Below are positions 23,301 through 54,995 of a stretch of 64,000 nucleotides of DNA, piece after piece. Numbering within the stretch: position 1 is the stretch's first letter; the number at the start of each line of letters is the position of its first letter. The translations under genes were made by a program, and so were the position numbers. The DNA comes from an uncultured Bacteroidales bacterium (lineage in GTDB: Bacteria; Bacteroidota; Bacteroidia; Bacteroidales; Bacteroidaceae). Below the pieces are notes generated by a model that was given only the letters and a program-made list of their open reading frames with translations, was not told where the DNA came from and did no database searches. The stretch is from assembly GCA_902799685.1 (NCBI GenBank), contig CADCBO010000010.1, positions 17,076 through 81,075 on the forward strand, given 5' to 3'.

Positions 23301-24271
23301 AGTTTCCTGTCCTTAAGGCCGCACACCCGGATCATGCCGTTTCCTGCGTCCGAAGAGTATTTGCTGACATCGACAGGCAGGTACGTCGATATCTTTTTCC
23401 TGCCTTTTACGATTGTCTCCGACATTGTCAGCGTATATCCGTTGTCTGTCAGACGGTCCTGGGCGAATGACTTGAGGAAATGCTGGCTTGAGCCGTAGTA
23501 TGCACGCATGCGGTTCTCTTCTATGCTCCTGGTCTTACGCTTTTTCAGATTCTCGTAGGGCTTGTAGTAGAAGTAGCCGAGCATGTCGCATGTGGTGATG
23601 TTGTTCGTCCTGGTGACCGTGAACTTTACCAGGTCAACATAAAGTTCATATCCAAGCAGGGGCAGGTCTATTATCAGGGGTTCATAGGCCCATGCGGTGA
23701 ATACGCTTGATACAACTTTTACCGTATCTTCAAAGACTTCGCTCTTTATCACATAATCATTGCTGATATGCTGTCTGGAATATGAGGTGCGGCTTACCTG
23801 CCTGGTGTGGTACGTGGTCTGATAGGAGTTGTCGGCCATAAGGACGTTTTCATTCGTGATGGTTGCACGCTTGCCCCACCGGTCATCGCCCAGAAACATG
23901 GTCTTGAAGTATTCCAGGTCCTCTTTCTTGACCTTATTGGCCTTGCCCGATATTTCAATCTCGTCCAACTCTATGTTTGGTTTGAGGCTGATAGTAAGCG
24001 ATCCCGGGTTACGCTCCAGATTAAATGCCTGCGGCTGATAGCCCACAAAGCTGAACACGATTGTGGCTGGGAACAATACGTCTTTAAGCTCAAAACGGCC
24101 GTCAGTGCCTGTGGTGGTTCCCTGGGTGGTGCCGTTCACATAGACAGTGGCCATTGGCAGCGGATCGTGCGTCAGGCTGTCAACGACAATACCGGTTATG
24201 GCGTTCTGTCCCAATAAGGCTGCGGGATAGGACAGGACCATTGCCAGTGCTAAGGTTATCAGGCGTTTCAT
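20351..24271 (-). CDS. Large secreted protein with carboxypeptidase-regulatory-like and MG2-like domains
   Basis: A 1306-residue exported protein with a signal peptide (~1-21). Residues ~22-105 form a CarboxypepD_reg-like beta-sandwich (ITGIVVDSLTHDPLPMATVYV, then TDGRFELKDV). A region near 400-500 (KVYLEFDNTAYFQGEDIWYKA) resembles the MG2 domain of alpha-2-macroglobulin-like proteins. The C-terminus reads TDEDGRARVEFYNS and then a final strand. No TonB plug or 22-strand barrel was recognised, so it is not a SusC-type receptor despite the N-terminal domain. A similar architecture is common in Bacteroidales with no known function; it probably lies at the outer membrane or periplasm. Its ATG overlaps the upstream lipoprotein stop by four bases. 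Confidence 0.8.
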   Translation of the reverse strand: MKRLITLALAMVLSYPAALLGQNAITGIVVDSLTHDPLPMATVYVNGTTQGTTTGTDGRFELKDVLFPATIVFSFVGYQPQAFNLERNPGSLTISLKPNIELDEIEISGKANKVKKEDLEYFKTMFLGDDRWGKRATITNENVLMADNSYQTTYHTRQVSRTSYSRQHISNDYVIKSEVFEDTVKVVSSVFTAWAYEPLIIDLPLLGYELYVDLVKFTVTRTNNITTCDMLGYFYYKPYENLKKRKTRSIEENRMRAYYGSSQHFLKSFAQDRLTDNGYTLTMSETIVKGRKKISTYLPVDVSKYSSDAGNGMIRVCGLKDRKLSIRYYHRSDGSPVNFREKGKGIRRYSESWITFLEEECTFRKEGIATDNSIRFTGDISKKRVAASLPDDYFPPSDSSAIKVKSSADYAGELIKFADNIRQFNSLFPQEKVYLEFDNTAYFQGEDIWYKAFVTNATTLERAPSGVLYVDFLSPTGQLVMQQKLKIEAGQADGIIPLLDAGTYQTREKHGIVAYPSGFYEIRAYTQNMLDFSPEAIFSRVIPVYTQPKYMGEYNESHVVSDQDNPLIENLRGQSREQRAQNNNVNVTFYPEGGDLVKGLPCRIAFKATGSDAFGMEGTLLIPGHSDSIHTVHDGMGSFIITPRGNDVVDFHASGIGRKRCYLPSAQKSGYSMMADMLSDSRMQVNIWRTPDRVGEQAALAVTCRGEVIHFEEIKDIDNTQFEIDCSGWPVGVCRVTLFNREGRILSSRSIFHNSVEYRTPTITVNTDSMSRKSCGREVLEFMLTDEDGNPLRDRFCLSVRDAADYGGGRTDNLQTNLLLSSDLRGYIHDPAWYLEADDDEHREALNLLTLVQGWERYEWQTMTGLKEFEERHRIEEGLTMNGWILSYSKREPVSDIGVYANVIPDNDKTLFESFEYHTDSTGYFGFDLSDFYGSGKFNINLMSANKDGQSRHEKSKRIRFERADRPKPRPYLKQETDLSHNTPVITGFEDDFDDDDLSELRKRSKGTLLDPVDIEAKASKIRFLDYDTFTSFEAEEDAELELDQGEYTTDVEGYFLERGIRFNFESREDKLIEQDMNILSGISESEGVGNEIGNIGGFDNRYESGVESGLMSSNDNENGFFIEKEITPHFYVHNLEKFLWQPPFANPMKIDMIDVKSIIVFDRPMYPREFADLIPLEIELARKHVDDAFFSWLNNSWRRYYLVDIQIKNDRQLLFDWEISNLGRRTTTVKGYTRTLEFYSPQYPDGPIEGNLDTRRTLYWNPNVKTDEDGRARVEFYNSTFTRRFTISGAGITASGVPYILNRNW

Positions 24272-25440
24272 TGCAGCAATACCGATGACAAGTCAAAGCT
24301 GTAGAGCAGCTCGTTGAAACCGTCCATCCCATAGAGAATATTACGGCTTCCATCGTATGCAATATCCCACACGGGAACATCCAGTTTTACGGATTTAAGG
24401 AACCTGCCGTCCAAACCAAAGAAAAGCAGTTCTGCCAGCGGGCTTTCAGGGTCAGGCGAATTTATGCTGTAATCGCCGGCAAAATAGAGCACCATAAAGA
24501 ATGAATCAGCATACGCGGCATGTCCAAAGTGCTGGATCATATTATCCTCTATATATTGCAGACCGTCTTCCGTCACCCCCTCAGTCAGCTCATAAGTGGG
24601 CAGCTTGTCATCAAAAGAGAGCGAGCCGGTCTGATGGACGGCAAAAGTCTTGTCTTTATCTATATCGATGAACAGGATGTAATCCATAGCGGAAAACGGC
24701 TGGATTATCAGGTTACGATCAGGATGTTTCAATATCGATCCTTCATAATAGTCAACATCCTCCATATCAATGCTTGTAAGGAACTTGATTCTCTTTATCT
24801 CCATTGTATCCCGGCTGATACTGTAATAAGGTTCCTCATAATAATCTGGATGAACAGTAAGGGCGGCATTGTACTCAAATGCATTGTAGATGTCATTGTT
24901 CAGGAACTGGAACTCTCTGGGGGCCGCAAAACCCACCTCAGCACCATCCAAATTGACTTTAATGAATCTGTAAGCGTAATAATCATCCCTTTGCTGTACT
25001 AATACGGTACTCTGGCGTTTTACAGATTCCGTCAGGTCCAGCACCTTGATTCCACCGGACCTGCCGTCAACCAAAGGCACCAGAATACTGCCGTCAGGTT
25101 CCTTGAAGAACTGGCCTGATACCGTGCTTACTGAATATAGGAACTCATTCCTGGCCCGCCCTATATTGCAGAATGAGCCAAGCGGTTGCCATTGAGTGGA
25201 ATAGACGTGCAACCGGGCCTGGTTTCCGCTGGATGTGACTATTATGAATGTATCACATACGGCTATTCCTGATGCTCCCAGAGGCAACTGCGCCTCTACA
25301 GGAATGCCATGAATAGTAATCTCTGATTTGTTCATGAAATCCGTTTCAATCACATCAACGGCAACGCGATGCCTGCTACTGCAGGAACATATCAGTAAGG
25401 TTGTCAAAACTGACTTGGCTAACAAAGGAAAAGGTCTCAT
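24268..25440 (-). CDS. BF3164-like beta-propeller lipoprotein
   Basis: A 390-residue lipoprotein (LLICSCSS lipobox, Cys ~18-20). The body reads as repeated beta blades (HVYSTQWQPLGSFCNIGRARNEF, GSILVPLVDGRSGGIKVLDL) like the 6-bladed propeller group, though more distant from the copies at 3160 and 14494. It is co-transcribed with the 1306-residue protein through a 4-base ATGA overlap, so the two products probably work together at the cell envelope. A minus-strand TATATTTG at 25468-25475 is the likely promoter. Confidence 0.8.
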   Translation of the reverse strand: MRPFPLLAKSVLTTLLICSCSSRHRVAVDVIETDFMNKSEITIHGIPVEAQLPLGASGIAVCDTFIIVTSSGNQARLHVYSTQWQPLGSFCNIGRARNEFLYSVSTVSGQFFKEPDGSILVPLVDGRSGGIKVLDLTESVKRQSTVLVQQRDDYYAYRFIKVNLDGAEVGFAAPREFQFLNNDIYNAFEYNAALTVHPDYYEEPYYSISRDTMEIKRIKFLTSIDMEDVDYYEGSILKHPDRNLIIQPFSAMDYILFIDIDKDKTFAVHQTGSLSFDDKLPTYELTEGVTEDGLQYIEDNMIQHFGHAAYADSFFMVLYFAGDYSINSPDPESPLAELLFFGLDGRFLKSVKLDVPVWDIAYDGSRNILYGMDGFNELLYSFDLSSVLLQ

Positions 25441-25467
25441 AATTCAAATTCTATTTGATTACGGTTT

Positions 25468-25475
25468 CACAAATA
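25468..25475 (-). promoter_or_regulatory. -7 element of the lipoprotein/large secreted protein operon
   Basis: TATATTTG on the minus strand, 27 bases ahead of ATG 25440. Confidence 0.5.
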
Positions 25476-25531
25476 TAATTCATTTTTTGTTAAAATGAGC
25501 GGAGGTTGTGACAATAAGTGAAAATGTTGCA

Positions 25532-25539
25532 TATCTTTG
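25532..25539 (+). promoter_or_regulatory. -7 promoter element of the aromatic amino acid operon
   Basis: TATCTTTG matches TAnnTTTG. A TTGTG about 21 bases upstream (25506-25510) may serve as the -33 element. The leader peptide ATG lies only 8 bases after the element, so the transcript should begin at or within a few bases of that codon. Confidence 0.7.
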
Positions 25540-25547
25540 CGGACGAT

Positions 25548-25607
25548 ATGAGAACTGTTAACGCATACTTCTATTACTTTTGGTTTACCAGACAATATGC
25601 CGGGTAA
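25548..25607 (+). CDS. Leader peptide of the aromatic amino acid operon
   Basis: A 19-residue open frame, MRTVNAYFYYFWFTRQYAG, then TAA. Eight of 19 residues are aromatic: four Tyr, three Phe and one Trp, with a run of seven in a row at residues 7-13. It lies between the operon promoter and a rho-independent terminator (25643-25670), ahead of DAHP synthase, prephenate dehydrogenase and prephenate dehydratase. This is the design of a ribosome-mediated attenuator such as the pheA leader of E. coli. The ribosome would stall at the run when charged tRNA-Tyr or tRNA-Phe is scarce. The start lies at or next to the expected transcription start, so it would be translated without a Shine-Dalgarno sequence. 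Confidence 0.85.
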   Translation: MRTVNAYFYYFWFTRQYAG

Positions 25608-25670
25608 TTTGTTGTATGCATTTTAAATAAGAAATGACAGAGAGCCCGGACAAATAATCCGGGCTTTTTT
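25600..25670 (+). terminator. Attenuator: intrinsic terminator with competing antiterminator
   Basis: Stem AGCCCGGA (25643-25650) / TCCGGGCT (25658-25665), 7-base loop, then a run of six T (25665-25670): a strong intrinsic terminator ahead of aroF. The CCGGG at 25600-25604, covering the last codons of the leader peptide, is complementary to CCCGG in the 5' arm. A ribosome stalled at the aromatic run leaves CCGGG free to form the antiterminator; one that reaches the stop codon covers it and lets the terminator form. The mechanism is inferred from sequence. Confidence 0.85.
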
Positions 25671-25701
25671 GTTACGAAACAGAAGACAAGAAACAGAAAC
25701 T

Positions 25702-26712
25702 ATGATAGCAGTACTTAAAGCTGGAGTCTCAGAGACCCAAAAGAAAAACCTTATCAACTGGATCAAAGGCCAGGGAGTTGACGTACACATATCCGAAGGC
25801 CAGTTCCAAACGGTCATTGGTCTTATAGGTGATACCAGCCGAATTGACCCCGACCTGCTTAGCGGACTGGACATTATTGAGAGCGTTACACGCATAAGCG
25901 AGCCGTTCAAGTGCGCCAACCGCCGTTTCCACCCCGCCGATACGATAGTAGAAATTGGTGAGGGTGAGAACAAAGTCCGTATTGGAGGCGGTAACTTTGC
26001 CATAATAGCCGGTCCCTGTTCAGTTGAATCTGAAGAACAGATAACCGGCATAGCCCAAGCCGTTAAGGCATCCGGAGCAACTCTGCTGCGCGGCGGCGCT
26101 TTCAAGCCCCGCACAAGCCCTTATGATTTCCAGGGAATGGGTGCCGACGGCCTTGAACTTTTGCGCAAGGCTCGCAAGGCTACCGGTCTGCCCATCGTAA
26201 CCGAGATCATGAGTGAAAAGCATCTGGATATGTTTGCCGATGTGGACATGATTCAGGTGGGAGCACGCAATATGCAGAACTTTGAGCTGCTCAAGACCCT
26301 GGGCCGCACCAAGAAGCCCATACTGCTTAAGCGCGGTCTGTCAAGTACCATAAAGGAGTGGCTCATGAGTGCCGAGTATATCATGGCCGGCGGCAATGAG
26401 AACATTGTGCTGTGCGAGCGAGGCATTCGCAGCTATGACAACTACACACGCAACGTGCTTGACCTTTCGGCCATTCCTGTTGTAAAGGAACTGTCACATC
26501 TGCCCATCATAGTTGATCCCAGCCACGCAACCGGCAAGTCACGCCTGGTTCCGTCAATGAGCCTGGCAGCTGTCGCAGCCGGTGCAGACGGCCTTATCAT
26601 AGAGGTGCATAACGATCCGGAACACGCCCTCTGCGACGGAGCACAGTCACTCACCCCGGCACAGTTTGACGAGGTGGCACGTAAAGTTAAGGCACTTAAG
26701 GAAATCGTTTAA
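25702..26712 (+). CDS. aroF: 3-deoxy-7-phosphoheptulonate (DAHP) synthase
   Basis: First enzyme of the shikimate pathway, joining PEP and erythrose 4-phosphate. 336 residues: an N-terminal ferredoxin-like regulatory domain (~1-75, as in Thermotoga-type enzymes) followed by the type I-beta/KDO8P-synthase-like TIM barrel. Metal and substrate motifs include AGPCSVES, RGGAFKPRTSPY, LKRGLSST, CERGIRSY and DPSHATG. The ferredoxin-like domain usually confers Tyr/Phe feedback inhibition. Here the chorismate mutase domain is absent; it sits on PheA instead. ATG 25702 is used because the open frame from 25669 starts inside the attenuator terminator. First structural gene after the attenuator. Confidence 0.95.
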   Translation: MIAVLKAGVSETQKKNLINWIKGQGVDVHISEGQFQTVIGLIGDTSRIDPDLLSGLDIIESVTRISEPFKCANRRFHPADTIVEIGEGENKVRIGGGNFAIIAGPCSVESEEQITGIAQAVKASGATLLRGGAFKPRTSPYDFQGMGADGLELLRKARKATGLPIVTEIMSEKHLDMFADVDMIQVGARNMQNFELLKTLGRTKKPILLKRGLSSTIKEWLMSAEYIMAGGNENIVLCERGIRSYDNYTRNVLDLSAIPVVKELSHLPIIVDPSHATGKSRLVPSMSLAAVAAGADGLIIEVHNDPEHALCDGAQSLTPAQFDEVARKVKALKEIV

Positions 26713-26744: not shown

Positions 26745-27578
26745 ATGATTGTAGGAGTAGTAGGATTGGGGTTGATTGGCGGATCACTTGCCAAGACATA
26801 CAAGGAAGCAGGATGGACTGTATATGGTTTTGACCTGAACGAGTCTGTAAGCCGTTTTGCCGAACTTGAAGGCACACTTGACGCTGTGCTTGACAACAGG
26901 AACATAAAGAAATGTGACCTTATCCATATAGCTGTCACCCCTGATGCCGCTTGCGGATGGATTGAGAAGCATGCTCCGGAAATAGCCAAAAGCACTATGG
27001 TGATTGATGACTGCGGCACCAAACGCAAGGTGGTGGAGTGCGGTATGAAAGCGGCAGAAAAATATGGGTTCACCTACGCCGGCGGACATCCCATGGCAGG
27101 AACACATCTATCAGGCTACAAGAACTCACGCGCCACCATGTTCCAGAACGCATCCATGATAATCATCCCGCCCACCCACGATGACATCCAACTTCTGGAC
27201 CGAATCAAGCACCTGCTTGAACCCATGCTGCTGAAACGAGTGGTATTCACTACCCCTGAGCAGCATGACAGCATGATAGCGTTCACGTCGCAGCTGGCTC
27301 ACGTGGTGTCAAACGCATACATCAAGAGCCCGTCGGCCCAACAGCACAAAGGCTACAGCGCAGGCAGTTTTCGAGACCTGACACGTGTGGCCTGGCTAAA
27401 TGAGAATATGTGGACAGAGCTGTTCCTTGAAAACAAGGACAATCTGCTACGAGAGATACACACCTTGATAAACAACCTCACGCAGTACGCCGATGCCATG
27501 GAGGCCGATGATGCCAAGGCATTGTGCGCACTGCTGCGTGACGGACGCATAGCAAAGGAATTATCAGAAAAGAATTGA
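26745..27578 (+). CDS. tyrA: Prephenate dehydrogenase
   Basis: Oxidative decarboxylation of prephenate to 4-hydroxyphenylpyruvate in tyrosine synthesis. 277 residues: a Rossmann NAD(P) motif GLGLIGGS at residue ~7, the catalytic-His region GGHPMAGTHLSG (~110-120), and a helical dimerisation domain. It is the short form, with no chorismate mutase or ACT domain, so feedback by Tyr would act elsewhere. Second gene of the operon, 32 bases after aroF; the gap is the heptad array. aroB follows after three bases. Confidence 0.94.
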   Translation: MIVGVVGLGLIGGSLAKTYKEAGWTVYGFDLNESVSRFAELEGTLDAVLDNRNIKKCDLIHIAVTPDAACGWIEKHAPEIAKSTMVIDDCGTKRKVVECGMKAAEKYGFTYAGGHPMAGTHLSGYKNSRATMFQNASMIIIPPTHDDIQLLDRIKHLLEPMLLKRVVFTTPEQHDSMIAFTSQLAHVVSNAYIKSPSAQQHKGYSAGSFRDLTRVAWLNENMWTELFLENKDNLLREIHTLINNLTQYADAMEADDAKALCALLRDGRIAKELSEKN

Positions 27579-27581
27579 GTT

Positions 27582-28637
27582 ATGGAAACCCCTACCCGAA
27601 TCACCGTCAACGCCTCAGGCAAATATGACATACTGCTCCGCAAGGGCGGTCTGAGCCATATTGGGGATGCTGTTGCGGAACGCTTCAAGCCCTGCAAGAT
27701 AGCAATCCTGAGCGATGACAAGGTTTTTCCGCTCTACGGAAAGGTTGTTACGGAATCACTGGAGAGAGCTGGATTCAGCACCGTCAGCCACGTGATTGAG
27801 AACGGCGAACAGTCCAAGACCCTGGACAATGTCACAGCGTTCATAGGCACGATGGTCCAGGCGCAGGTAACCCGTACCGATATGGTGCTGGCTCTGGGAG
27901 GCGGCGTTGTGGGTGATATGGCCGGATTTGCTGCAGCCATATATCTGCGCGGCATACCTTACATTCAAGTGCCCACCACCCTGATGGCAGCTGTTGATTC
28001 ATCGGTGGGAGGAAAGACCGCCGTGGATATCAGCTCCGGCAAGAATCTGATAGGAGCGTTTCACCAGCCCGCATTGGTATATCTTGATACCGATACACTT
28101 TCCAGTCTTGACCACGATGTGATGCGTGACGGATTTGCCGAAGTGCTAAAATACGGTTTCATACTGGACAAGGAACTGGCACAGGTTACCGCACGCCCCG
28201 GCACCTTTGACCTGGAGCAGGTGATAGCCCGATGCATAAGCATCAAACGGGACGTGGTAGAACAGGATGAGTTTGACAAGGGCATGCGTGGCCTGCTCAA
28301 CCTGGGCCACACATTCGGACACGCCATTGAGAAGCTGAGCGGATTTACCATAACCCACGGAAGTGCTGTTGCACGCGGAATGGTAATTGCCGCCAAGGTG
28401 GGTGCAGAGTACGGTCTGCCAAACCTGACCGCCCAGATTACGGAAATTATAAAAGCATACGGTTTTGACACAGATTGCCCCTACTCCGCCGATGAGCTGT
28501 ATGACGTAATCCTATCCGACAAGAAACGCAGCGGAGCAGACATAACGCTCGTTCTGCCCGAATCCATCGGACACTGCGTATTAAGGAAGATGCCTGCCAC
28601 TCAGGTTCTTGAACTGATGATAAAGACTGGGCTATGA
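27582..28637 (+). CDS. aroB: 3-dehydroquinate synthase
   Basis: Converts DAHP to 3-dehydroquinate. 351 residues. NAD-binding and active-site signatures are clear: ALGGGVVGDMAGFAAAIYLRG, VPTTLMAAVDSSVGGKTAVD and the metal-ligand region LNLGHTFGHAIE. Length is normal for AroB. It overlaps the next gene by 4 bases (ATGA), so translation is coupled. Confidence 0.97.
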   Translation: METPTRITVNASGKYDILLRKGGLSHIGDAVAERFKPCKIAILSDDKVFPLYGKVVTESLERAGFSTVSHVIENGEQSKTLDNVTAFIGTMVQAQVTRTDMVLALGGGVVGDMAGFAAAIYLRGIPYIQVPTTLMAAVDSSVGGKTAVDISSGKNLIGAFHQPALVYLDTDTLSSLDHDVMRDGFAEVLKYGFILDKELAQVTARPGTFDLEQVIARCISIKRDVVEQDEFDKGMRGLLNLGHTFGHAIEKLSGFTITHGSAVARGMVIAAKVGAEYGLPNLTAQITEIIKAYGFDTDCPYSADELYDVILSDKKRSGADITLVLPESIGHCVLRKMPATQVLELMIKTGL

Positions 28638-29902
28638 CACTTGATGTAAGTGGAACTCTATCCGGAAACGTACAGGTGCCGCCGTCCAAATCGGTAGCGC
28701 ACCGCATGCTCATATGCGCCGCACTGGCAGATGAGCCATGCTCCATTGCATGCCGCAGCGTGAACCGCGATATGGAGGCCACAGCGGCCTGCCTTAACGC
28801 ACTGGGTGCCTACATCACATACACGGACGGCCGTTTCAACGTTACTCCAATAAGGAACATAAACAAGTGCAAATTGCTGGACTGCGGAGAGAGCGGTTCC
28901 ACACTGCGTTTCCTTTTACCGGTAGCGGCGGCACTAGGTGCAGATGCCATATTCACAGGCCAGGGCCGTCTGCCGGAACGACCGCTCTCACCACTTTACG
29001 AGGAGATGACAGCCCACGGAATCCGAATGTCAAAAAACGGACGCATGCCACTGTCGTGCCAAGGGATCCTGCCAGCAGGAAACTATACGATTGACGGTGG
29101 CGTATCGTCACAATTCATATCGGGACTGCTTATGGCTCTGCCTCTTACAGGAGCAGACAGCACCATTACCGTTACAGGGAAACTTGAGAGCGCATCATAC
29201 ATAGAGCTTACCATTAACGCCCTGAAACAGTTTGGGATTGAGATTCAGAAGAACGCAAACGGATACAGCATACCGGGAGAACAGAGATACTCCATACCGT
29301 CTGCCATGATTGCCGTTGAGGGCGACTGGTCTGCCGCCGCATTCTGGCTTGTGGCTGGCGCAGCAGGCAGCAAAAGCATAACCTGCACAGGAATTGACTA
29401 TGAGAGCTCTGCACAGGGTGACCGCCGTATAGTGGATGTACTGCGCAGTATGGGTGCCAACATCATTACAGGCAAAAATAACATCACGGCCATACCGTCC
29501 GGCCTGACCGCCGGCACCTTTGACTGTGCCGACATCCCTGACCTGGTTCCCATTATGGCTGTGGCGGCAGCAAAAGCACAGGGAACCACAATATTCAACA
29601 ACATAAAGCGTCTTCGCATAAAGGAGAGCGACCGCATCCAGTCTATTCTGGAACTGCTGTCAGGGACAGGGATATGCTCCTATGCCACAGAGAACTCCCT
29701 GACCGTAACCGGAGGCCCAGCGCACGGTATGCAATACGATCCAAACGGAGACCACAGAATGGCTATGGCAGCCACTATTCTGGCATCGGTCAAGAATGTA
29801 ATCATCACCATCAAAGATTCAGAATGCACGGCAAAGTCCTACCCTGCCTTTTTTGATGATTTCAATGCGCTTGGCGGACACGCCGGACAAAACGGACAAT
29901 AA
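28634..29902 (+). CDS. aroA: 5-enolpyruvylshikimate-3-phosphate synthase
   Basis: Transfers enolpyruvyl from PEP to shikimate 3-phosphate. 422 residues. The N-terminal PPSKSVAHRMLICAALA, the GESGSTLRFLLP loop, DGGVSSQFISGLLMALP and LRIKESDRI are all recognisable. The GESGSTLRFL loop aligns with the glyphosate-binding LPGSKS/NAGTAMR regions of other classes but differs in residues. It overlaps aroB by four bases; pheA follows after 11 bases. Confidence 0.96.
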   Translation: MTLDVSGTLSGNVQVPPSKSVAHRMLICAALADEPCSIACRSVNRDMEATAACLNALGAYITYTDGRFNVTPIRNINKCKLLDCGESGSTLRFLLPVAAALGADAIFTGQGRLPERPLSPLYEEMTAHGIRMSKNGRMPLSCQGILPAGNYTIDGGVSSQFISGLLMALPLTGADSTITVTGKLESASYIELTINALKQFGIEIQKNANGYSIPGEQRYSIPSAMIAVEGDWSAAAFWLVAGAAGSKSITCTGIDYESSAQGDRRIVDVLRSMGANIITGKNNITAIPSGLTAGTFDCADIPDLVPIMAVAAAKAQGTTIFNNIKRLRIKESDRIQSILELLSGTGICSYATENSLTVTGGPAHGMQYDPNGDHRMAMAATILASVKNVIITIKDSECTAKSYPAFFDDFNALGGHAGQNGQ

Positions 29903-29913
29903 TACCTTACAAT

Positions 29914-31056
29914 ATGGAACTATCAGACTACAGAAAACAGATTGACGACATTGACGATGAGATATGCCGTCTTTTTGCAGAGCGCATGAACGTTGTGAAT
30001 GAGATAGGCGAATACAAACGTAGCCATGACTTGCCCGTAAACAGTGGTTCACGCGAGCGCGAGGTGTTGGCGCATATCTCAAAACAGCTCCCAGAGGACC
30101 TTGAAGACTTTGGACGAGTTCTATATCGCTCCATGTTTGATGTAAGCAAGGCATACGAGGCCATGTACAAGGAGAAAGACTCGCCACTCTACAAAGCCGT
30201 ATCAAGCCTTATAAACGCAGACCCGGCCCCTTTCCCCAAGCGCGCTGTAGTGGCTTGCCAGGGACGCGAGGGCGCATACTCCCAGATTGCCGCCGAGAAG
30301 CTCTTTGAGGTACCTGAGATAATGTACAACAGCACATTCGAAGGTGTTATCCGTATGGTTACCGATGGACTTTGCGAGTATGGAATACTACCAATAGAAA
30401 ATTCCACTGCAGGCTCAGTAAATGAAATATATGACCTGCTTATCAGGTACAACGTACACATAGTCCGAAGCACGCGTGTAAGAATTGACCACCAATTGCT
30501 GGCAGCCAAAGGCGCACAGCTTAAGGACATAAAGACCATCTACTCTCATCCGCAGGCCATTGACCAATGCTCACATTTCCTGAGCACACTCAAGGGTATC
30601 AATATTATTCCGTTTGACAACACCGCCATGGCCGCACAGAAGGTATCAAAAGACCCCAGCTGTTCGACAGCATCCATATCATCAAAAAGTTGTGCAGACC
30701 TTTATAACATGGAGGTTCTTGCACGCAACATCCAGAACTTTGACAGCAACCACACCCGCTTTATCTGCATAGCCAAGGATGCGCGCATATATCCGGGAGC
30801 CAACCGCACCAGCATAATGATGGTAGTAAGCCACAAGCCCGGAACGCTTTTCAGCGTGCTATCCAAGTTCAACGCCACCGGCGCCAATTTGGTCAAGTTG
30901 GAGAGCCGCCCCATCCCGGGCCGTGACTTTGAGTTCATGTTCTATTTTGACATTGAGCTCTCCATCTATGACAAGAAGTTCGCATCACTCATAAGCGAGC
31001 TGGACCACTGCGGCGAGCAGTTCAAATACTTTGGCACTTATCAGGAGATTATATAA
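29914..31056 (+). CDS. pheA: Bifunctional chorismate mutase / prephenate dehydratase
   Basis: 380 residues in P-protein order. Residues ~1-90 are an AroQ-type chorismate mutase (MELSDYRKQIDDIDDEICRL, then REREVL). Residues ~108-285 are the prephenate dehydratase with GREGAYSQIAA, PIENSTAGSV and the catalytic TRF motif (NHTRFICI). Residues ~295-380 are an ACT domain with the phenylalanine-binding ESRP motif, so feedback by Phe is expected. It feeds phenylpyruvate synthesis. In many Bacteroides genomes the mutase is attached to DAHP synthase instead, so this arrangement is notable. Fifth gene of the operon. Confidence 0.95.
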   Translation: MELSDYRKQIDDIDDEICRLFAERMNVVNEIGEYKRSHDLPVNSGSREREVLAHISKQLPEDLEDFGRVLYRSMFDVSKAYEAMYKEKDSPLYKAVSSLINADPAPFPKRAVVACQGREGAYSQIAAEKLFEVPEIMYNSTFEGVIRMVTDGLCEYGILPIENSTAGSVNEIYDLLIRYNVHIVRSTRVRIDHQLLAAKGAQLKDIKTIYSHPQAIDQCSHFLSTLKGINIIPFDNTAMAAQKVSKDPSCSTASISSKSCADLYNMEVLARNIQNFDSNHTRFICIAKDARIYPGANRTSIMMVVSHKPGTLFSVLSKFNATGANLVKLESRPIPGRDFEFMFYFDIELSIYDKKFASLISELDHCGEQFKYFGTYQEII

Positions 31057-31065
31057 ATTCGCGGT

Positions 31066-31497
31066 ATGAAAAAGATTCTGGTAATAAACGGGCCTAACCT
31101 GAATATGCTGGGACTGCGCGAACCCGCCATATACGGCAGCCGTGACTACAATGCGCTTCTGGTATTCATCAGGGAATCGGCGACAGCCTTGGGACTGGAA
31201 GCGGAATGTTTCCAATCCAATCATGAAGGGGCTATTATAGATTGCATACAACAGGCTTACGGAGTATTTGACGGCATAGTGATCAACCCCGCCGCATATA
31301 CGCATACCAGCGTGGCCATACTCGATGCACTTAAGGCTGTGGCAATCCCTACGGTTGAGGTTCATTTGAGTGATGTTGATTCCCGTGAAGAATTCCGCCA
31401 CAGGTCATTCGTGTCACTCTATGCCTGCAAGGTGATTAAAGGACACGGATTTGACGGCTACAGAGAGGCTCTGGAATACTTTTCAGAAAAAAAATGA
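31066..31497 (+). CDS. aroQ: 3-dehydroquinate dehydratase, type II
   Basis: Dehydrates 3-dehydroquinate to 3-dehydroshikimate. 143 residues, normal for the dodecameric type II enzyme. Signatures: INGPNLNMLGLREPAIYG with the catalytic lid Arg/Tyr, QSNHEGAIID, INPAAYTHTSVAI with the catalytic His, and EVHLSDVDSREEFR. Last gene of the aromatic operon, 9 bases after pheA and followed by a terminator. Confidence 0.97.
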   Translation: MKKILVINGPNLNMLGLREPAIYGSRDYNALLVFIRESATALGLEAECFQSNHEGAIIDCIQQAYGVFDGIVINPAAYTHTSVAILDALKAVAIPTVEVHLSDVDSREEFRHRSFVSLYACKVIKGHGFDGYREALEYFSEKK

Positions 31498-54883: not shown

Positions 54884-54892
54884 CGGCCGAAT

Positions 54893-54995
54893 GAAGAAGG
54901 GGTGCCCGCAAGGGGCTGAGATTATACCCTATGAACCTGATCCGGACAGTGCCGGCGTAGGGATTGGATTTCAAGATACTGGCATACCCTTTTTC
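54893..54995 (+). ncRNA. TPP riboswitch (THI element)
   Basis: The thiamine pyrophosphate aptamer is recognised by its conserved words: GGGGTGCC, GGGGCTGAGATTATACCC, ATGAACCTGATCCGG, ACAGTGCCGGCGTAGGGA. A 3' segment GGCATACCCTTTTTC (54981-54995) can pair with the 5' GAAGAAGGGGTGCC to close P1. No separate strong terminator is visible before ATG 55020, so control may be through P1-coupled access to the start region. It controls the TonB receptor and PnuT genes. Confidence 0.95.

Follow-up and report, generated by a model that had tools for sequence, protein, structure and literature searches.

In Escherichia coli, the pheL leader peptide, which lies ahead of the chorismate mutase/prephenate dehydratase (CM/PDT) gene, is described as being under the control of charged tRNA-Phe. 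The pheL leader forms competing hairpins, is translated from a Shine-Dalgarno start and responds to Phe only. Among Bacteroidetes, the Bacteroid-trp RNA is a Trp-codon leader found ahead of trp genes. Table 1 of Weinberg 2010 (PMC2864571) gives this RNA (RF01692) as cis-regulatory and places it in Bacteroidetes. In Corynebacterium glutamicum, the aroR-aroF system (Neshat 2014) comprises a leader peptide with Phe-Tyr-Phe before a DAHP synthase operon, and according to the source passages stalling raises transcription under Phe limitation while Tyr availability is without effect (PMC11802643, PMC4046766). The ilvBNC leader peptide of the same species is reported, in a title cited in PMC4046766, to be made without a ribosome binding site. 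For Flavobacterium psychrophilum, ‘strong clues’ are mentioned that leader peptides mediate attenuation ahead of operons for amino acid biosynthesis, which go unnamed in the source passages (PMC9723704), and sORFs of Bacteroides thetaiotaomicron have been called ‘reminiscent of leader peptides’.

We analyzed a stretch of 64,000 nucleotides (the window) from the genome of an uncultured Bacteroidales bacterium of the family Bacteroidaceae, in which an aromatic-rich leader stands before an operon for aromatic amino acid synthesis. As in pheL (RF01859), a leader peptide lies ahead of a CM/PDT gene; unlike pheL, with its Shine-Dalgarno start and its response to Phe only, the window stays under the RF01859 cut-off. 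Whereas Bacteroid-trp senses Trp, the leader of the window would sense Tyr and Phe. The window shares with C. glutamicum aroR-aroF, as far as the source passages describe it, an aromatic leader peptide before a DAHP synthase operon, but belongs to another phylum and has seven consecutive aromatic codons instead of three; the F. psychrophilum attenuators belong to the same phylum as the window. The first-pass annotation, made from the letters alone, named no described example of such a leader for a Bacteroidales aro operon. We likewise found no paper on this element, nor on any aromatic leader in Bacteroidales or Clostridia, in the open-licence literature without its supplements, but RF01692, F. 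psychrophilum and C. glutamicum aroF are precedents. The mechanism is classical, and neither the leader family nor its breadth seems to be described in the literature searched.

The leader occupies positions 25532–25670 of the window, and all its parts lie on the plus strand. It begins with a −7 promoter box of the Bacteroidota TAnnTTTG type (TATCTTTG, 25532–25539). Eight bases 3′ of this box is the leader ATG (25548–25550), which opens a 19-codon frame (25548–25607) encoding the peptide MRTVNAYFYYFWFTRQYAG and closed by a TAA stop (25605–25607). Eight of the codons are aromatic: seven are consecutive (the regulatory codons 7–13, Y F Y Y F W F, 25566–25586) and codon 17 encodes Y. A second in-frame ATG at 25524 is missing from several rows of the genus alignment and lies 5′ of the −7 box, and would therefore be absent from the transcript. 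Several segments are predicted to pair in and around the frame. Strand 1 (GCATAC, 25563–25568) is the 5′ half of a protector helix whose 3′ half is GTATGC (25614–25619). Strand 2 (TGCCGGGT, 25598–25605), located at the leader stop codon, is the 5′ half of the antiterminator, and strand 3 (AGCCCGGACA, 25643–25652) is both the 3′ half of the antiterminator and the 5′ arm of the terminator. The core of strand 2, CCGGG (25600–25604, codons 18–19), is complementary to CCCGG (25645–25649) inside this arm. The intrinsic terminator (25643–25670) pairs 25643–25650 with 25658–25665 and continues into six T residues (25665–25670), the first of which doubles as the last stem base of the 8-bp hairpin. The promoter, the 19-codon frame with its eight aromatic codons, the T6 terminator and the CCGGG/CCCGG complementarity named in the first-pass annotation could thus all be read directly from the DNA. 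A generic scan reported no terminator in 25000–26200 and likewise did not list this promoter type, and its sigma-70-type promoter hits were at chance level; support for the terminator hairpin comes from folding and alignment, not from that scan.

The aro operon begins 31 bases after the end of the terminator. Its six genes, all on the plus strand, have roles in chorismate, tyrosine and phenylalanine synthesis. Profile matches identified aroF, the first gene, encoding a DAHP synthase (NF006421, 25702–26712), aroB, encoding 3-dehydroquinate synthase (27582–28637), aroA, encoding EPSP synthase (28634–29902), and aroQ, encoding a type II dehydroquinase (31066–31497). The second gene, tyrA (26745–27578), was assigned to the prephenate dehydrogenase family from best matches that lie under their curated cut-offs, and the fifth encodes a pheA-type chorismate mutase/prephenate dehydratase (29914–31056, PF00800 above its cut-off). 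The earlier proposal that the downstream genes make Tyr and Phe agrees with these assignments. The prephenate dehydratase of this operon is the sole one found in the genome, the assembly of which consists of 37 contigs and is 85.8% complete. Another DAHP synthase, whose tail resembles chorismate mutase by eye, is encoded on the minus strand of a different contig (L181, 4447–5526), and no prephenate dehydratase adjoins it. Elsewhere in the window there is a TPP riboswitch (54888–54980, 62.1 bits).

The arrangement displays the parts of a leader-peptide attenuator: a short frame rich in codons for the products of the operon, a terminator between the leader and the first gene, and an antiterminator that shares the 5′ arm of the terminator. 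The remaining feature, a strand 2 that is free upon stalling and covered when the ribosome is at the stop codon, was found as geometry only. From these parts we infer the transcription start, translation, stalling and amino acid response as follows. Transcription would begin from the TATCTTTG promoter, at the leader ATG or a few bases 5′ of it, and a ribosome would load on the leader without a Shine-Dalgarno sequence. When Tyr-, Phe- or Trp-tRNA is scarce, the ribosome would stall in the YFYYFWF run, leaving strand 2 free to pair with strand 3 (AGCCCGG-CA); this pairing would block the terminator, and the aro operon would be transcribed. With ample charged tRNA, the ribosome at the stop codon would cover strand 2, strand 3 would pair with strand 4, and transcription would end at T6. 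In cells that do not translate the leader, the GCATAC/GTATGC helix would shelter strand 2 and favour termination. We consider it very probable that the element is a ribosome-mediated transcription attenuator that senses charged tRNA-Tyr/Phe (and Trp).

Folding agreed with these helices. The fold of the 125-nt leader consists of the protector and the terminator (−33.8 kcal/mol, z −3.8, 1 of 200 shuffles as good), and that of the 59-nt segment 25596–25654, the part left free by an early ribosome stall, is the antiterminator (−18.3 kcal/mol, z −3.9, equalled by none of 200 shuffles). In the genus alignment, with 20 distinct rows, both protector and terminator were paired in 100% of cells, each with three one-sided G-U variants. 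The antiterminator was paired in 91.6% of cells; its six core pairs do not vary, and its outermost pair (25598:25652) fails in 13 of the 15 distinct rows that have letters on both sides. Two-sided changes of pairs were absent from all 3 helices within the genus, so that the pair counts yield no covariation evidence for or against the helices.

A DNA search found the leader in 21 of the 37 genomes of the genus, its own included, that is, in 20 of the 36 others. We read all 21 loci of these 20 genomes (G569 has two), which together with the window's own gave 22 rows. An earlier view that the leader is absent from relatives, based on five aroF orthologues of the family that lack it, was thereby overturned. 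At each of the 21 other loci the leader precedes an aroF-like frame starting ATGATAGC; four genus genomes without a leader DNA match had no aroF at the guessed operon places. Mean column identity was high in the −7 box (0.97), the ATG (1.00, invariant in 22/22 rows), codons 6–13 (0.96), GCCGGGTAA (1.00), TTTGTTGTATGC (0.97), strand 3 (0.96) and strand 4 (0.93), and lower in the spacer between box and ATG (0.69), codons 2–5 (0.78) and the stretch 5′ of strand 3 (0.78). The seven consecutive aromatic codons are kept in all 22 rows, in six DNA variants. Within the run F, Y and W interchange, with W replaced by Y in three rows, and all seven codon variants are aromatic, as against 12 of the 63 possible single-base changes. 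In most rows codon 17, next to strand 2, is aromatic as well; a ribosome stalled there would favour termination, which counts against the proposed mechanism. The RNA strand GCCGGGTAA, which pairs with the 5′ arm of the terminator, is invariant in 22/22 rows, also in the 6 rows in which the leader stops earlier; in 5 loci (L248, L251, L255, L256 and L258) one base fewer leads to an earlier TAG stop and leaves GCCGGGTAA intact. The RNA is therefore conserved and the peptide tail is free, and selection seems to act first on the aromatic codons and next on the RNA pairing. The first-pass annotation expected conserved aromatic codons and compensatory changes in the CCGGG/CCCGG pair among relatives: the former were found in every row, but within the genus the pair is invariant and no compensatory change was seen. 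Altogether, the fold z-scores and the conservation at 21 other loci of the genus place the leader element beyond chance.

Covariation was seen only between genera. The order is taken as Bacteroidales, since in the aroF tree genomes of the same family cluster tightly with Bacteroidaceae-labelled records (L101 with L005–L008). In this order, 61 of 149 genomes, the window's own among them, yielded a prephenate dehydratase. Among the 61 PDT loci from the 60 other genomes, 53 had a hairpin and a T-run behind an aromatic-rich frame (51 after removal of doubtful leaders). No leader unit was found at L051, L055, L057, L065, L068, L084, L090 and L097; at L068 and L084 the contig breaks off just 5′ of the gene. 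In a strand control on 29 PDT loci, an aromatic frame was present on the forward strand in 24, on the reverse strand in 7 and in 1.6 after shuffling. Since such frames also occur on the reverse strand, the frame alone is weak evidence, and the hairpin and strand 2 carry the case. In the phylum outside the order, the frame was present in 1 of 30 loci and on the reverse strand also in 1 of 30 (best 30 of 71 PDT matches).

We next compared the strand near the leader stop with the 5′ arm of the terminator. The mean score of 66 leaders, among them the window's own, L032 and L033 (six frames dropped: one each of L032, L071, L091 and L096, and two of L047), was 18.9 versus 10.8 for shuffled sequences, with p < 0.05 in 51 of the 66; the window's own score is modest taken alone (p = 0.03). 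After three further drops (L047, L099 and one of L096), the remaining 63 leaders, which again include own, L032 and L033, scored 19.33 with their own arm and 13.85 with swapped arms (sd 0.35, maximum 14.89 of 200). These 63 leaders have 53 distinct strand-2 sequences. The leaders are not aligned homologues, and such differing but self-matching pairs of strand 2 and arm are, on this reading, the between-genus form of compensation. Strand 2 begins at a median of 37 nt past the first and 13 nt past the last aromatic codon of the cluster (34 and 13 nt in the window, where it lies at the stop codon), and in 52/63 leaders it overlaps the region within 15 nt of the stop. With this geometry, a ribosome at the stop would mask strand 2, and one stalled in the run would leave it exposed. 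The analysis documents the anatomy, conservation and geometry of the leader as well as a complementarity that returns in other leaders with other sequences. Leader-peptide attenuation as proposed in the first-pass annotation is supported by the comparison suggested there: the genus conserves the aromatic codons, and in other genera the end of the leader again complements the terminator arm, with different sequences.

At nine loci of the strict set (L044, L054, L063, L066, L072, L079, L080, L094 and L100), tandem aromatic leader frames precede pheA, each with its own hairpin and T-run. Tandem attenuators with 2 short frames in one leader region have been described for Salmonella mgtCBR (PMC3641672), which in this respect resembles these nine loci, whereas the window has a single unit; as far as the source describes it, mgtCBR differs from the leaders of the order in its signals and its genes. 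A codon pattern search with [FY]5-W-[FY] in 393 genomes of the order was set aside: it matched 106, mostly AT-rich noise as judged by eye. Thirty loci from this search included the window's own, and two of ten that were read further (L032 and L033) proved to be leaders before pheA.

The position of the leader start codon allows two readings of the same attenuator. Transcription usually starts a few bases 3′ of the −7 box, and with the box 8 nt from the ATG the 5′ UTR would therefore be approximately 0 to 5 nt long. A start codon next to the transcription start is thus plausible, and we give about an even chance to the near-leaderless start being a working part of the attenuation. A shade below that we place an attenuator with a short but ordinary 5′ UTR, in which transcription would start 3–6 bases before the ATG and initiation would be of the ordinary Shine-Dalgarno-free kind; the 8 nt between box and ATG are compatible with it. 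It also draws support from the wider order, where an exact TAnnTTTG occurs no more than 60 nt 5′ of 41/63 leaders (shuffled mean 2.6, maximum 8), at 6–50 nt from the ATG with a median of 22 nt. Because 36 of these 41 boxes lie at 14–32 nt, longer 5′ parts work as well, and the spacing in the window is the second shortest among the order leaders with an exact box. Against the ordinary UTR stands the genus, in which the spacing is exactly 8 nt in 20/22 rows, own included (9 in G592), despite the variable spacer, which suggests that closeness matters. Judged by these distances, the predicted near-leaderless start is a trait of the genus and unusual in the order. G581 (L260) is the only genus row with another 5′ part, in which TACTTTTG is followed by a 5′ hairpin (GGTGCCTGAA...TTCAGGCACC) and the leader ATG lies 3′ of it.

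The aro operon itself looks clostridial. Among the best 80 aroF relatives retained from a collection of genome contigs, 2 are labelled Bacteroidaceae (L101 and L102) and almost all the rest belong to Clostridia or Spirochaetes, and many of the 80 have the gene order aroF-tyrA-aroB-aroA-CM/PDT in common. In a quick aroF tree, the window and seven Bacteroidaceae-side rows (support 86) stand beside one clostridial sequence (99*), among Bacillota, and L101 groups closely with L005–L008. The attenuator may have come from Clostridia together with the operon, or a native element may have been placed before a foreign operon. To the joint arrival, which this tree favours, we assign a probability approaching one half. 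In line with it, aromatic frames were found 5′ of aroF in 65 of 78 clostridial/Treponema loci (L103–L180; 4 on the reverse strand, 1.6 in shuffled sequences), and the word GGGTAATTTGT is common to the window and three clostridial-side loci. However, shared words of at least 9 letters arise in approximately 1.5% of shuffled regions, so that about one of the five matches seen is expected by chance, and the three matches with 11 belong to one clade. Profile scores are moreover alike for clostridial and Bacteroidales leaders, and the leader is absent at the seven nearest Bacteroidaceae-side relatives of aroF (L004–L008 of the same family, L101 and L102), which means that the operon can live without it. 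By eye, L004–L008 have TAnnTTTG-like boxes shortly 5′ of aroF. An initial impression that clostridial leaders lack the strand-2 signature (p < 0.05 in 7 of 51) was dropped: with the loop included, p < 0.05 was reached in 33 of the 58 loci analysed of the 65 with an aromatic frame (own score 17.9, shuffled 12.6, swapped 14.2), and we therefore withdrew a difference in kind between the attenuators of the window and of Clostridia. No Rfam cis-regulatory match was found in the six clostridial/Treponema aroF loci scanned.

Rfam did not assign the leader of the window to a described class. At the leader, every family stays below its gathering score, and the copy at L019 has no match at E ≤ 1. The Phe_leader (RF01859) and Trp_leader (RF00513) families do not reach their gathering cut-offs in the window and gave sub-threshold hits only in other loci; tRNAs apart, Rfam 15 yielded only sub-threshold matches to known leaders in 16 loci. 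Bacteroid-trp (RF01692) is matched neither in the window nor in the genome as a whole (85.8% complete), though the same search was positive in Bacteroides ihuae. A small-molecule riboswitch, a T-box or an RNA-binding protein acting through the same terminator is accordingly very improbable: the stable leader fold speaks for it, but no T-box was matched by Rfam in the window or in six relatives, and conservation falls on codons and helix strands. A constitutive terminator or processing site behind a frame that arose by chance or encodes an unrelated small protein is highly unlikely too, since, although seven related aroF loci do without the leader, conservation covers the aromatic run and strands 2 and 3 but not the variable spacers, and the adjoining gene (24268–25440) is on the minus strand, so that no other transcript is seen for the terminator to end.

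We return to the ribosome-mediated attenuator and to its wider reading, which we put forward tentatively, at less than even confidence for the whole. The leaders would form an order-wide, unrecognised family of leader-peptide attenuators for aromatic synthesis, sometimes in tandem and leaderless in the genus, where the promoter-start distance is fixed. In the genus version, the first ribosome would need no Shine-Dalgarno sequence to bind the emerging RNA at its 5′ end, and the promoter itself would time the sensing. The aro operon governed by the switch would be clostridial in type, and the two may have passed together from one phylum to another. The 63 leaders would point to an RNA family missed by Rfam 15 both in the window and in the 16 loci scanned. 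In Bacteroidales, translation starts largely without Shine-Dalgarno sequences, and these leaders would provide natural variants for how a ribosome loaded in this manner keeps pace with RNA polymerase. If this reading is true, ribosome-mediated attenuation would be a widespread control of Tyr and Phe synthesis in Bacteroidales.
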